From: Aquitalea magnusonii
GTDB taxonomy: Bacteria; Pseudomonadota; Gammaproteobacteria; Burkholderiales; Chromobacteriaceae
Assembly (NCBI RefSeq): GCF_002217795.2
Contig: NZ_AP018823.1
Location: 2,542,001-2,606,000, forward strand
Length of the DNA: 64,000 bases
Direction of reading: 5' to 3'
A program made the translations under genes and the position numbers. This document shows, in pieces, positions 22,917 to 27,953 of this stretch (position 1 is its first letter; every line of letters begins with the position of its first letter). The notes beneath the pieces were generated by a model. That model was given only the letters and a program-made list of their open reading frames with translations, made no database searches and had not been told where the DNA came from.

Positions 22917-23114
22917 GCTGCTTCCTTTGCTGCAAGGTGGGAAAGCGCAGATTCTACCGCTAAAGCAGGCGGCACACAGTGCCTCCCCCCAGGCGGGCAG
23001 GGTGCCGGCTGCAAAAAAGCCGGCCTGAAAACGGCAAAAACCTACCGCTGCGACGGTGATGACACAGTCGCGGAACTTTTTTGCTGCGATGGCACAAAAA
23101 GCCGCCAATCGCGA

Positions 23115-23144
23115 TTGACACCCGCAAACAGCGGGGACTAGAAT
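23115..23144 (+). promoter_or_regulatory. Strong sigma-70 promoter of the magnesium-module leader
   Basis: A perfect -35 TTGACA (23115-23120) and TAGAAT (23139-23144) with an 18-base spacer. Predicted transcript start is near 23151, giving an untranslated leader of about 950 bases before the Nramp-related gene. No other good promoter was found nearer to the gene. Confidence 0.65.
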
Positions 23145-23454
23145 CCGCGCATCTTTTTAATTCGGGTCTACTGCCTTGGACTGCCCCAGTCATCAACAAA
23201 CTGTTTTGAGCTGATCCGCCAAGACCTGCGCCGTATTCCCCCGCCGCCGTCTTGCCAGATCAAGATGGTGCGCATCTGCTTCACCCCCCGTTGCTTCACC
23301 CCGTGCACCCCGCCCTGCCAGTTGCCCATGCAGCACTGTGCTGTCGTTAAGCCATGGCTTGTCGCCTTGCTTGCGCTTGCAGCCTGATGCCGCATTGCCT
23401 TGCTGACTTTGCAGCCTCTGCGCCAGATCCGGCCACAGACGGAAAGGAGCCGCC

Positions 23455-23517
23455 ATGCCATCAGACCGTGATCGATGTCCCGCTTTGCCCATGAAATTTT
23501 TCACGGGCACTGCCTGA
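23455..23517 (+). CDS. Small ORF 1 in the Mg-module leader (20 aa)
   Basis: ATG preceded by AAAGGAG five bases upstream, one of the best ribosome-binding sites in the window. Encodes 20 residues, starting MPSDRDRCPALP and ending KFFTGTA. No known family. Its value is as a possible leader peptide; two prolines follow Cys and Leu. Real translation is unproved. Confidence 0.4.
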   Translation: MPSDRDRCPALPMKFFTGTA

Positions 23518-23573
23518 TCCGTCTGTCAGCGACATGTTCAGGCAGCGTCCGCAACTGCTTCAGGAGCCTGATC

Positions 23574-23720
23574 ATGCACTACGCCATGCTGCTGTCTACA
23601 CAACACAAGCAAGCCCGGCCACTGCCGGCCCACCTGGCATTTGCCTGCCACGATGAAAGCGTGTGGAGCTGGCTGTACCGCCACCTGCGCATCGCCCTGC
23701 ACCAACGCAAGCAGGCCTGA
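23574..23720 (+). CDS. Small ORF 2 in the Mg-module leader (48 aa)
   Basis: ATG preceded by CAGGAG at a 7-base distance. Encodes 48 residues, basic and rich in His, Leu and Ala (MHYAMLLSTQHKQARPLP at the start; VWSWLYRHLRIALHQRKQA at the end). The C-terminal half could form an amphipathic helix. No recognised homologue; could be a leader peptide or a small membrane-associated protein. Confidence 0.4.
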   Translation: MHYAMLLSTQHKQARPLPAHLAFACHDESVWSWLYRHLRIALHQRKQA

Positions 23721-23797
23721 GACTGCCTGCCCGCCGACATCCGGCCAACAGTGATTGACCCGCATCGCCCGATGCCAAGACCAGGAAAAGGACAAAC

Positions 23798-23878
23798 ATG
23801 GACCCCTACCCCAGTAGCGCGGTCGCACAGAGCAGCATGACGGCGAGCAGTACGATGAGGATGCCCTATCGCCACTGA
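23798..23878 (+). CDS. Small ORF 3, acidic/proline start (26 aa), possible Mg-sensing leader peptide
   Basis: ATG preceded by AAGGA at 5 bases. The peptide of 26 residues begins Met-Asp-Pro-Tyr-Pro and continues with Ser/Ala/Met-rich sequence. The enterobacterial mgtA leader peptide MgtL begins Met-Glu-Pro-Asp-Pro; such acidic/proline starts destabilise ribosomes when Mg2+ is low, which is how it senses the ion. The similarity is short and could be chance, but it sits in the expected place, just before a C-rich tract and upstream of Mg-transport genes. Confidence 0.45.
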   Translation: MDPYPSSAVAQSSMTASSTMRMPYRH

Positions 23879-24104
23879 CATCCCCTTCTCCTCCCGCCTC
23901 CCCACTGTGTGACCTCCTCGACCCGGCCCTTGTGCCACGCCGTATTGCCGTACCGACCTCGCCACGACAAGCCAGCAGGATGCCTGGATATCTCGCGTTT
24001 CATGCCTGCCATGAGGCCAGACATCCCACACCCCCTGAAAGGCAGATCCGAGCCGTCGGACCGCACCAGAATGCTTATGCAGTAACAGTTTCAGGGAGTA
24101 ACAC

Positions 24105-25745
24105 ATGTCCAAACAAGATAACCGCACCGCCGTACTGGATAGCGCCCACATCGGCGACATCCGCGGCGCGCTGGGTACCATCCGTCACAACGACACCGCT
24201 GCCCGCCATGGCTGGATGGCCAAATTCAAGACCCTGCTGGCCATTCTCGGCCCCGGCCTCATCGTGATGGTGGGGGACAACGATGCCGGTGCCTTCAGCA
24301 CCTATGCCCAGGCCGGACAAAACTACGGCACCTCGCTGCTGTGGACGCTGGCACTGCTGATTCCTGTCCTGTACGTAAACCAGGAAATGGTACTGCGCCT
24401 GGGGGCCGTCACCGGCGTGGGCCATGCCCGGCTGATCCTCGAACGCTTTGGCAAGTTCTGGGGTGCCTTCAGCGCCATCGACCTGTTCCTGCTTAATGCG
24501 CTGACCATCGTCACCGAATTCATCGGCATCAGCCTGGGGATGGATTTTCTGGGCGTACCCAAAATTATCGGCGTGGGCCTGGCTGCGGTATTCATCATGC
24601 TGTCGGCCAGTACCGGCGACTTCCGCCGCTTCGAGCGTTTTTCGCTGATTCTGGTGGCCGGCAGCCTGCTGCTGGTTCCCATCCTGGTGATGGTTCACCC
24701 GCCCATGACCCAGGTGGCGCATGATTTCCTGCTACCGCAAATGCCGGCAGGCGGCAAGCTGGCAGACGTGATGCTGCTGATCATCGGCATTGTCGGCACC
24801 ACCGTGGCACCGTGGCAGTTGTTCTTCCAGCAAAGCTATCTGATCGACAAGCGCATCACCCCGCGTTTCATCTCCTACGAGCGTGCCGATCTGTGGCTGG
24901 GCATTGCACTGGTGGTGATTGGTGCGGTGGCCATGATTGCCTTCACCGCCCAGGTGTTCATCGGTCATCCGGAGTTCGGCAACTTCCAGGATGCCGGCGC
25001 GGTCGCCAATGGGCTGGCCAAATACTATGGCCGCCTGCCCGGCACGCTGTTCGCCGTCGCCCTGATTGACGCCAGCATCATCGGCGCCATGGCGGTTTCG
25101 CTGTCCACCGCTTATGCGCTGGGCGATGTACTGAGCCTGAAACACTCGCTGCACCGCAAGCCGGGCGACGCCAAGGGTTTCTATGCCATGTATTGCGGCC
25201 TGATCGTGCTGGCGGCGGCGCTGGTGCTGATTCCGGGCGTACCGCTGGGCCTGCTGACCAATGCCGTGCAAACCCTGGCCGGCGTGCTGCTGCCCAGCGC
25301 CACCGTCTTCCTGCTATTGCTGTGCAATGACAAGGATGTACTGGGCCCGTGGGTGAACGGCCGCTTCTTCAATGTGCTGTCGGCCATCATCGTGGCGGTA
25401 CTGGTGCTGCTGTCCATCATCCTGACGGCGGCGGTGGTGTTCCCGGACATGTCGGGCGAAAGCATCAGTAATATCCTGATTGGCGGCAGCGTGATCGGCC
25501 TGATCATCGCCATCGTGGTGAACGTGCTGCATGCCCGCGAAGAAATGGAAAAGGGCCAGGTGCCGCATCACAAGGCACGCAAGATGGATTTGCATCACAT
25601 GCATAGCTGGCGCATGCCGCCGCTGGACCAACTGCCCCCGCTGGTGCTGTCCCAGCGTAACAAGCTGTGGATGGCCGTGTTGCGCGGCTATCTGGTCGTG
25701 GCCATGGGCATGGTGATCTACAAGGTGGTGGCATCCATGCTGTAA
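24105..25745 (+). CDS. Nramp-related magnesium transporter (NRMT-like)
   Basis: Polytopic inner-membrane protein, 546 residues, about 11 TM helices, SLC11/Nramp fold. The TM1 motif reads VGDNDAGAFSTYAQAG (57-72) instead of the usual DPGN, and TM6 reads GTTVAPWQLFFQQS (231-244), with Ala235 where classical Mn/Fe carriers have the metal-binding Met of M-P-H. Loss of that Met and this TM1 form mark the Nramp-related Mg2+ transporters first found under an M-box in Clostridium. The downstream mgtC supports Mg2+. The long C-terminal tail has a His/Met-rich stretch HHKARKMDLHHMHSW (about 486-500). Automatic annotation may call it MntH; the motifs argue against Mn2+. GGGAG precedes the ATG. Confidence 0.85.
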   Translation: MSKQDNRTAVLDSAHIGDIRGALGTIRHNDTAARHGWMAKFKTLLAILGPGLIVMVGDNDAGAFSTYAQAGQNYGTSLLWTLALLIPVLYVNQEMVLRLGAVTGVGHARLILERFGKFWGAFSAIDLFLLNALTIVTEFIGISLGMDFLGVPKIIGVGLAAVFIMLSASTGDFRRFERFSLILVAGSLLLVPILVMVHPPMTQVAHDFLLPQMPAGGKLADVMLLIIGIVGTTVAPWQLFFQQSYLIDKRITPRFISYERADLWLGIALVVIGAVAMIAFTAQVFIGHPEFGNFQDAGAVANGLAKYYGRLPGTLFAVALIDASIIGAMAVSLSTAYALGDVLSLKHSLHRKPGDAKGFYAMYCGLIVLAAALVLIPGVPLGLLTNAVQTLAGVLLPSATVFLLLLCNDKDVLGPWVNGRFFNVLSAIIVAVLVLLSIILTAAVVFPDMSGESISNILIGGSVIGLIIAIVVNVLHAREEMEKGQVPHHKARKMDLHHMHSWRMPPLDQLPPLVLSQRNKLWMAVLRGYLVVAMGMVIYKVVASML

Positions 25746-25860: not shown

Positions 25861-26565
25861 ATGCACTTCGATTTTTCTGTGTTTACCCATTCCTTCATTG
25901 CCCTGCTGACCGCCTTTCTGCTGGGCTCGGCCATCGGTTACGAACGCCAGGTGCGCCAGCGGACTGCCGGGCTGCGCACCAATGCGCTGGTGGCCGTGGG
26001 CGCTGCCGCCTTTGTCGATCTGGCCATGCGCCTGAATGGCCATGAAGGTGCCACCCATGTGGTGGCTTATGTGGTATCCGGCGTCGGCTTTCTGGGGGCC
26101 GGCACCATCATGAAGGAAGGCCTGAATGTACGCGGGCTGAATACCGCCGCCACCCTGTGGGGCTCGGCGGCGGCCGGGGCCTGCGCCGGAGCGGGCTTGC
26201 TGGATGCGGCCTTGTTGGCTGCCATCTTCGTGCTGGCCGCCAACACCCTGCTGCGACCGGTGGTGAATTCCATCAACCGCACGCCGCTGGATGATGAGCA
26301 CAGCGAAGTCACCTACCAGCTATGTGTGATCAGTGCCGAGGAACAGCAAAAACTGGCGTTCACCCTGATTGATCAATTGCTGGAGCAGGCGCAGTACCCG
26401 CTGGGTGATGTGAATGTCGAGCCGTTTGGCGATGATGATGTGGAAATCACCGCCACCTTGCTGTCGACCTCTGCCGATTCGGAAGTACTGGAGCAGATTG
26501 CCGCCCAACTGACTGCCATGCCTTACATCAAGCAGGCCTACTGGAACCAGAGCATTACCGAGTAA
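25861..26565 (+). CDS. mgtC: MgtC/SapB family protein
   Basis: Membrane protein of 234 residues. The N-terminal half has four or five TM helices with the family signature GSAIGYERQVRQRTAGLRTN (about 21-40) and GVGFLGAGTIMKEGLNVRGL, then NTAATLWGSAAAG; the C-terminal half is a soluble ACT-like domain, as in Salmonella MgtC. MgtC supports growth at low Mg2+ and inside host cells, partly by inhibiting the F1Fo ATP synthase. The start at 25861 follows AGGAGG. It lies 115 bases after the Nramp-related gene on the same strand, so both are probably under the long leader. Confidence 0.92.
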   Translation: MHFDFSVFTHSFIALLTAFLLGSAIGYERQVRQRTAGLRTNALVAVGAAAFVDLAMRLNGHEGATHVVAYVVSGVGFLGAGTIMKEGLNVRGLNTAATLWGSAAAGACAGAGLLDAALLAAIFVLAANTLLRPVVNSINRTPLDDEHSEVTYQLCVISAEEQQKLAFTLIDQLLEQAQYPLGDVNVEPFGDDDVEITATLLSTSADSEVLEQIAAQLTAMPYIKQAYWNQSITE

Positions 26566-26633: not shown

Positions 26634-27809
26634 TCAGGCCACGGCCGTCCTGCGCAGGCTGAGAGCAAAGCGCTCCAGCGCGGCAATACCGGACCGCTCG
26701 GCCCGCAGGCACCAGTCCTGCAGCTCGTGCAGCAGCTGCTCACGCGTCAGCGAGGAGCGTTCCCACAGCCGGCATAGTTCCTGACGCATGGTATAGATGG
26801 TATGCAGGGTTTCGCTGTGCTGCAGCACCGCAGCCAGCTGCGCCTTGTCGCACTCCGGCGTGTCCTTGGCATCCTGCTTCAGCCAGATCTTCATCTTGCG
26901 CACCAGATCATCCATCTCCGGCAGGCTGACCTGTTCCAGCTCCTTGCGATACACCTGTTTGAGTTCGCGCGCATAACGGGCGGCAATGGCATAGCGATTG
27001 GCGATGATGGCCTGCAGGTGCTCCAGGTCCAGTTGCGGACGGCTGCTATCCTGCGCCAGACGCGGCGCCACCCGGCGAACCTTCGCCAGATGGCAGATTT
27101 CCAGCATGCGGATGTACATCCAGCCGATATCAAACTCGTACCACTTGTAAGACAGCTTGGCCGAAGTGCCAAAAGTATGGTGGTTGTTATGCAGCTCTTC
27201 ACCGCCAACAATAATGCCCCAGGGGAAGATATTGGTGGAGGCGTCTTCATTCTCGAAATTGCGATAACCCCACCAGTGGCCCAGGCCGTTGATGACCCCG
27301 GCCGCCCAGAATGGAATCCACACCATCTGCACCGCCCAGATGGACAAGCCGGCCGGGCCGAACAGCAGCAGGTCGATGGCCAGCATCAGGAAGATGCCCT
27401 TGCCAAAGTGTGGCGTGTACAGCTTGTGCTCGATCCAGTCATCCGGCGTGCCATGGCCAAACTTGTCCATGATGGACTGATCCTTGCAGGCGGCGCGGTA
27501 CAATTCCACCCCTTCCCACAGCACTTTCTTGATACCCAGTATCTGCGGGCTGTGCGGGTCCTCTGCGGTTTCGCACTTGGCATGATGCTTGCGGTGAATG
27601 GCCGCCCACTGCTTGGTCACCATGCCGGTGGTCAGCCACAACCAGAAACGGAAGAAATGACTGGGCAGCGGGTGCAGGTCCAGCGCACGGTGTGCCTGGT
27701 GGCGGTGCAGAAAAATGGTGACAGAAGCAATGGTGATGTGAGTCAGCACCAGGGCCACGACGATATACCCCCACCATGGGAGATCAAGCAAACCGTTAAG
27801 CCAATGCAT
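26634..27809 (-). CDS. Fatty acid desaturase (delta-9 type, acyl-CoA/acyl-lipid)
   Basis: Membrane di-iron desaturase of 391 residues. Three histidine boxes bind iron: HRHQAH (35-40), HRKHH (72-76) and HNNHH (207-211). Four TM helices are in the N-terminal 180 residues; the C-terminal 150 residues form a charged helical tail (KQVYRKELEQVSLPEMDDL...). It likely makes unsaturated membrane lipids aerobically, for instance in the cold. The ATG at 27807-27809 is preferred to a TTG ten codons upstream because GAGG lies before it, though the distance (13) is long. Monocistronic. Confidence 0.9.
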   Translation of the reverse strand: MHWLNGLLDLPWWGYIVVALVLTHITIASVTIFLHRHQAHRALDLHPLPSHFFRFWLWLTTGMVTKQWAAIHRKHHAKCETAEDPHSPQILGIKKVLWEGVELYRAACKDQSIMDKFGHGTPDDWIEHKLYTPHFGKGIFLMLAIDLLLFGPAGLSIWAVQMVWIPFWAAGVINGLGHWWGYRNFENEDASTNIFPWGIIVGGEELHNNHHTFGTSAKLSYKWYEFDIGWMYIRMLEICHLAKVRRVAPRLAQDSSRPQLDLEHLQAIIANRYAIAARYARELKQVYRKELEQVSLPEMDDLVRKMKIWLKQDAKDTPECDKAQLAAVLQHSETLHTIYTMRQELCRLWERSSLTREQLLHELQDWCLRAERSGIAALERFALSLRRTAVA

Positions 27810-27953
27810 GCGGGCAGAAAACCTCAGAATTTTGGGCAATTCTCCATTTTAACCAATTGATCCTGCAGTGTCAGACTGTTTTCTACGGTTCGACTTGTGG
27901 CGCGCATGGTGTACCATAGGGCCTCAATCCACACACCCTTCAGAAAAACGCTT

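Follow-up and report, generated by a model that had tools for sequence, protein, structure and literature searches.

The window, a stretch of 64,000 nucleotides from the single-contig 4.85 Mb genome of Aquitalea magnusonii (G000), contains a leader (23115-24104) followed by an Nramp-like gene and mgtC, in that order (Table 1). The first-pass annotation had described an Nramp-related gene with mgtC behind a near-consensus promoter located far upstream. Both parts were confirmed: the two genes match PF01566 and PF02308, and the promoter is present at the leader's 5' end. It was the sole sigma70-like site found on the + strand of 22950-24150; a second site before 24105, such as a promoter directly before the gene, was not found on this strand. 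Counting both strands of the same region, two sigma70-like sites were found versus 0.4 expected from shuffles.

Table 1. Features of the leader and the operon (positions in the window; SD, Shine-Dalgarno sequence).
Feature	Position	Strand	Remarks
Sigma70-like promoter, TTGACA-18-TAGAAT	23115..23144	+	Consensus match 11/12; pattern recurs in 7/8 genus genomes with NRMT
uORF0, TTG start, LDCPSHQQTVLS	23176..23214	+	Weak SD; start region aligned in seven genus genomes; GGAGG SD in G009
ORF1, 20 aa, MPSDRDRCPALPMKFFTGTA	23455..23517	+	SD AAAGGAG; acidic N-terminus
ORF2, 48 aa (MHYAMLLS...)	23574..23720	+	SD CAGGAG; likely small protein
ORF3, 26 aa, MDPYPSSAVAQSSMTASSTMRMPYRH	23798..23878	+	SD AAGGA; MgtL-like acidic/proline N-terminus
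H1 5' arm	23821..23830	+	ORF3 codons 8-11
C-rich, G-poor, rut-like stretch	23879..23906	+	After ORF3 stop; C 0.64, G 0.04
H1 3' arm	23905..23914	+	About 75 nt downstream of the 5' arm
Candidate anti-SD, CTCCT	23914..23918	+	Adjoins H1 3' arm; weak in the window, but some relatives have a stronger one
CCCTGAAA	24033..24040	+	May pair with TTTCAGGG (24089-24096) over the NRMT SD
NRMT gene SD, CAGGGAG	24092..24098	+	
Nramp-related (NRMT-type) transporter gene	24105..25745	+	PF01566
mgtC	25861..26565	+	PF02308

The best solved relative of the Nramp-like protein was 7qia (4.6e-51), which we take to be the NRMT of Eggerthella; the best chain named MntH reached 8e-17. Stretches NDAG and TTxAPW are common to the window protein and 7qia. 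As the protein is closer to 7qia than to MntH and carries both stretches, it was taken as an NRMT, a member of the class of Nramp-related Mg2+ transporters (PMC4072509, partial text), and Mg2+ transport is predicted from the family. The pairing with mgtC was not general: mgtC lay downstream on the same strand in 17 of 72 long named NRMT loci. No mgtA match was found in the window genome at the cut-off used. Beside the operon, on the - strand (26634-27839), lies a DesA-family desaturase with an ISL3-transposase-like tail domain.

The three small ORFs of 20, 48 and 26 codons had been annotated before, and their lengths and SDs were as claimed. The TTG-start uORF0, which contains a small hairpin (GACTG-CCC-CAGTC, 23179-23191), and the helix joining ORF3 to 23905-23914 (H1) were absent from that annotation. 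A full NRMT gene was found in eight of the ten genus genomes. In seven of these eight, ORF1, ORF2 and ORF3 were all kept with start and SD, and the same seven have the promoter pattern. The eighth (G009) retains ORF3 (MDPYPIRPV) and a TTG-start uORF. Neither leader nor NRMT was matched in G008, which is 61% complete. At L127 (G006:C6:108500-117500), leader and mgtC were kept, and the NRMT gene was a remnant, a 200-codon frame matching residues 366-499 only.

The comparison among relatives thus showed starts, SDs and N-termini to be kept in the genus. The view of the three ORFs as one set stood only in part, because they are not alike. In ORF1 and ORF3, the SD, start and first acidic residues are fixed, and C-termini and lengths drift. 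One codon that is AGT in ORF1 of sister species is CGT in the window; AGT was lost from ORF1 in G000 and G001. ORF3 has its AGT codon at 23813-23815. The dN/dS values (Nei-Gojobori-like) for the seven Aquitalea rows were 0.72 for ORF1, 0.68 for ORF2 and 1.15 for ORF3, meaning that no overall protein-level constraint was seen for ORF3 within Aquitalea. Over 12 Chromobacteriaceae and Pseudomonas rows, the ORF3 value was 0.57. In Burkholderia s.l. (14 rows each), ORF1 and ORF2 had values of 0.65 and 0.50.

ORF2 likely behaves like a small protein, judging from its third-position excess. It was rejected as a Mg2+ sensor, as its N-terminus is not acidic. A small ORF of ~45-48 codons between the acidic uORF and NRMT was observed in Chromobacteriaceae and Burkholderiaceae (in the window MHYAMLLS, 23574-23720; MNFGLLLS at L103:3210-3344). 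A search with the Burkholderia form gave 30 proteins, all of them candidates, whose source names were hypothetical or uncharacterized protein. The third-position excess of ORF2 in both groups (dN/dS 0.68 and 0.50) and these annotated relatives would suit small ORFs that encode trans-acting peptides, e.g. ORF2 as a transporter helper. As an explanation of the leader this is very unlikely, since neither the length nor the C-terminus of ORF1 and ORF3 is constant, unlike in a trans product. A trans role of ORF2 could be compatible with ORF3 acting as a leader peptide.

A check for covarying stems was run on the relatives, and H1, formed by ORF3 codons 8-11 and 23905-23914, covaries. The helix was found in Chromobacteriaceae and two Pseudomonas. 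At the equivalent place, complementarity was 8/8 (G-U allowed) in 16 of 17 leaders and 7/8 in one; the chance of an 8/8 match within 75 nt was 0.3-2.5% per leader (12 leaders). With MAFFT run unguided, 92.9% of the 170 alignment cells were paired and six of the ten pairs had changed on both sides, with fewer independent events than these counts as the rows are related. The covariation score was 0.343 versus 0.208 in shuffles (0 of 500 reached it) and at most 0.115 when the arms were slid. Further pair types showed no excess over shuffles (110/500). H1 was the sole helix predicted by RNAalifold from the 457-column alignment. The fold of 23798-24110 showed no gain in stability over shuffles (z +0.58).

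The sequence that follows the 3' arm fits the NRMT SD of its own species more closely than that of other species (13.7 vs 10.6, p 0.0003; 10 of 14 rows computed, one per lineage). Examples of such anti-SD/SD pairs are CTTCCCC/GGGGAAG (L130), CCTTGC/GCAAGG (L131) and CCTCCAAA/TTTGGAGG (L053). In the window, the pair is weak (CTCCT/GGGAG, 5 bp with one G-U), and 24% of leader stretches score equally. L128, L129, L146 and L147 have a weak pair or none. Of 12 rows, all but G009 had a stretch rich in C and poor in G 3' of the ORF3 stop.

Outside this group, no H1-like helix was found in betaproteobacterial (combined p 0.76) or actinobacterial leaders (0.96), and the alphaproteobacterial signal was weak (0.013). 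Some alpha-type uORFs showed an internal hairpin at codons 7-9 with differing arms: GTCCCGTTG/CAACGGGAC in L084 (single p 0.040), GACCCGCCG/CGGCGGGTT in L072 (0.005) and GCCTGTCG/CGACGGGC in L102 (0.333). Rhizobiales-2 RNA matches flank two Bradyrhizobium loci (L084:2237-2334, L098:1951-2032).

H1 is a clear RNA element. Together with the C-rich stretch and the ORF3 dN/dS within Aquitalea, it could point to an RNA-only sensor or a Rho-dependent attenuator, with ORFs that are little translated or merely hold a ribosome and whose peptide and codon identity are irrelevant. We consider this quite unlikely. Leaders that lack H1 and whose RNA cannot be aligned repeatedly show acidic N-termini, and Rfam at gathering threshold matched only two tRNAs in the window and no family in the leader, the M-box (RF00380) included. 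The reading frame of the AGT codons, given below, also stands against it.

The uORF signature was examined in a larger set of leaders. There were 116 NRMT loci with upstream DNA: 28 from the genus and family, 77 named loci (80 minus three duplicates) and 11 from the order. Three with less than 300 nt upstream were left out, giving 113 leaders. For 26 loci with no start motif, the gene start was set at the start of the match. Under the strict rule, an ORF is SD-led, 8-60 codons long, has D or E among residues 2-4 and contains AGT within codons 2-12; the rules were drawn up after the sequences had been inspected once. A strict acid+AGT uORF was found in 65 of the 113 leaders, compared with 0.9 in dinucleotide shuffles and 0 in antisense; rows of the set are related, and some genomes are probably included twice, in both collections (e.g. 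L049 and L130). With the AGT clause dropped, 70 of 113 leaders had an acidic SD-led uORF versus 9.3. The first rule was matched by 44 of the 86 short SD-led ATG ORFs that lie in leaders, and by 19 of the 214 that lie elsewhere or in antisense at the same loci.

Acidic uORFs were found in 32 of 44 genera, and with AGT in 30, across Proteobacteria and Actinobacteria (genera assigned by similarity where not given, and MAGs by bin). Hence, the betaproteobacterial arrangement that had been noted does not stand alone and is one of a widespread set resembling MgtL and MgtQ. Examples are MDPWPSISVTPTRMAPPGR, MEPSPSRAVMLIGMAPPGR, MDPSSSRPVTLTGMVPPGR (Pseudomonas), MDPDPSWRHC (Roseateles), MNDSDSCPLC (Burkholderia), MPDSDSYPLC (Paraburkholderia), MDSPSRPYP (Ralstonia), MDEGPSCPV (Bradyrhizobium), LNDGPSRPV (Roseiarcus) and MDGSCSSPGHS (Streptomyces). 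In the other 12 genera, Chromobacterium included, no acidic uORF was found by the rule used. Three of these 12 have look-alikes that miss the rule: MEPGPSSS (L058), MNPGHSC (L112) and MNPRPSS (L083). The loci of Chromobacterium and kin (L056, L092, L135-L144), with no acidic uORF by the rule, encode NRMT proteins 73-74% identical to that of the window. An exact degenerate pattern of the alpha-type uORF was found in 0 of 398 phylum genomes; it was too strict and says only that this string is not common.

The M-box riboswitch controls NRMT genes elsewhere (PMC4072509, partial text). In our set, it lies upstream of one relative from an actinobacterial MAG (L105:199-375, 130.7 bits), where a MEPGSSC uORF is also present. 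An M-box before this NRMT relative fits Mg2+ as the signal.

Across 81 acidic uORFs, the stretch of the first 12 codons contained AGT 102 times in frame and 1 and 0 times in the other two frames. Its offsets from the uORF start vary by whole codons. This argues for a codon and not for an RNA motif at a fixed distance. AGT made up 73 of the 126 Ser codons in 58 distinct uORFs, compared with 132 of 2535 in NRMT genes; the AGT enrichment in NRMT leaders is descriptive, since the AGT clause came from the same data, and the P values of codon enrichment ignore the relatedness of the uORFs. TTA, ATA, CGA, CCT, TGT and TCA were also enriched, AGC and TCG were depleted, and GAC was preferred over GAT. 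Base composition alone is thus insufficient, because AGT, TTA, ATA, CGA and CCT are enriched while GAC exceeds GAT.

The excess of one serine codon, and the many proline-rich N-termini, could also be expected from attenuators that sense an amino acid or charged tRNA (serine via AGU, or proline) and not Mg2+. The mgtL of Salmonella senses proline. A single Ser codon is favoured, though, and other rare codons are enriched with it, a pattern more in line with slow decoding than with serine supply. Moreover, the acidity persists through D/E exchange (MDP, MEP, MEEP), and the downstream genes are those of Mg2+ transporters. We therefore regard amino acid sensing as unlikely.

The same uORF type was found before an unrelated transporter gene, mgtA (TIGR01524), in a set looked at after the AGT clause had been framed. 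The gene start was taken at the start of the match, and L245 was excluded as its match begins inside the gene. Among 67 mgtA leaders, 26 had an acidic uORF and 17 an acid+AGT uORF, compared with one in antisense; 12 of the 17 derive from the search of the family of G333, and two (L180 and L257) look like chance. The peptides include MDPDPSRSC (L168), MDCPSSRLP (L165), MNDDSYPP (L175), MNSDDSSRLP (L237, L240, L242), MEDGSSRMRP (L258, L259) and VDSSSSGSC (L235, L236). In L239, the peptide MPDSDSCPLRQ fits and the codons are AGC and TCT instead. In G333, uORFs of the acid+AGT type occur before NRMT and before mgtA alike.

None of the 13 mgtA loci of the class had an acid+AGT uORF by the strict rule. 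A laxer look gave MDPDPAGRT (L220) and VDSDLSRAC (L221). In a lax scan of mgtA leaders, some matches (LERWPSG in L166, and those in L177, L178, L183 and L186) resemble chance or a tRNA and were dismissed. As controls, the leaders of mgtE (starts estimated from the open frame, ≤600 nt upstream) and mntH (Aquitalea genomes only) contained acid+AGT uORFs in 0 of 30 and 0 of 19 cases. The presence of the uORF type before the unrelated transporter mgtA, and not before the mgtE and mntH genes examined, favours a leader-peptide Mg2+ sensor.

The suggestion of a Mg2+ sensor in this leader was partly supported, by the conservation of the leader and of the ORF starts, SDs and N-termini, by the finding of no other + strand promoter-like site before 24105 and by the similar uORFs before mgtA; it did not hold for ORF2. 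We consider it rather probable that ORF3, presumably together with ORF1 and uORF0, is a Mg2+-sensing leader peptide that works via the stability of the ribosome, as MgtL and MgtQ do. This reading is built on sequence comparison: the N-terminal codons are conserved both as residues and as codons, H1 pairs, anti-SD and SD covary, and a C-rich stretch lies between. With ample Mg2+, ribosomes would pass Asp-Pro-Tyr-Pro-Ser and sweep codons 8-11, so that H1 would not form. The 3' segment, now free, would then mask the NRMT SD, Rho could act on the C-rich RNA left untranslated, and the operon would be off. With little Mg2+, ribosomes would abort at the acidic/proline N-terminus, whose slow codons would lengthen the wait at the unstable step. 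Codons 8-11 would be left free, H1 would form and pull the anti-SD away, and NRMT and mgtC would be made. The ON/OFF polarity is the least certain step of this model: a ribosome stalled at codons 3-5 may cover part of the H1 arm, with the opposite result.

ORF3 shows signs of both MgtL and MgtQ: its N-terminus is of the acidic/proline kind, and one helix arm lies within the ORF and competes with a possible mask of the RBS. Like MgtL (mgtA of E. coli and Salmonella), it is a small uORF that is led by an SD, precedes a Mg2+ transporter gene and has an acidic residue and prolines within the first five residues (MEPDP in E. coli, MDPYP in ORF3), although MgtL has two acidic N-terminal residues and ORF3 has one. 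Among the codons of the 17-residue MgtL of E. coli K-12 are CCT, CCC, CGA, AGA and TTA; it shares rare ones, CGA and TTA for example, with the NRMT uORF set. At low Mg2+, the EPDP of MgtL leads to ribosome drop-off, and a Rho-dependent terminator is no longer accessible as a result (PMC11282234, partial text). In contrast to MgtL, the gene here is NRMT with mgtC, there are several uORFs per leader, other phyla are involved and the NRMT uORFs have a recurrent in-frame AGU Ser codon that MgtL lacks. A covarying helix and a neighbouring candidate anti-SD are also present here, and ribosome abortion is a prediction.

Similarly, MgtQ (Salmonella mgtCBR) is a tiny ORF with acidic early residues, in which Asp2 and Glu5 act via alternative stems that free the mgtB RBS (PMC8092293, partial text). 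Alternative stems overlapping the ORF decide the access to the transporter RBS in that system, according to the same partial text. The differences are that MgtQ has 8 aa, lies between mgtC and mgtB and lowers mgtB when its start codon is lost, as far as this text goes, whereas the window ORF leads the operon and its polarity is a prediction.

Among open PMC titles and the beginnings of abstracts, uORFs before NRMT genes or an AGU signature were not described; novelty is provisional, subscription papers and preprints being outside this scope. In three surveys of RNAs (PMC11109978, PMC8632094, PMC6429828), the available portions of the main text contained neither 'nramp' nor 'mgtC'. The first of them, in the portion available, has an mgtE motif in Thioalkalivibrio.

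We put it at slightly short of an even chance that the leader belongs to a widespread class of Mg2+-sensing leader peptides, which would precede MgtA genes in Proteobacteria and NRMT genes in both Proteobacteria and Actinobacteria. In such a class, Asp, Pro and Ser residues and the slow codons AGU, CGA, UUA and AUA would prolong a Mg2+-sensitive, easily lost state of the ribosome, and the enterobacterial MgtL would be one local form. Mg2+ sensing by ribosome destabilisation is established for enterobacterial mgtA and mgtCBR. If our reading is true, it has a counterpart in distant bacteria, ahead of another family of transporters, and ribosome destabilisation would be a general readout of intracellular Mg2+. 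The recurring in-frame AGU would give a cheap handle on whether codon speed sets the sensor, and the acid+AGU signature could help to recognise leaders of Mg2+ transporters that have no M-box.
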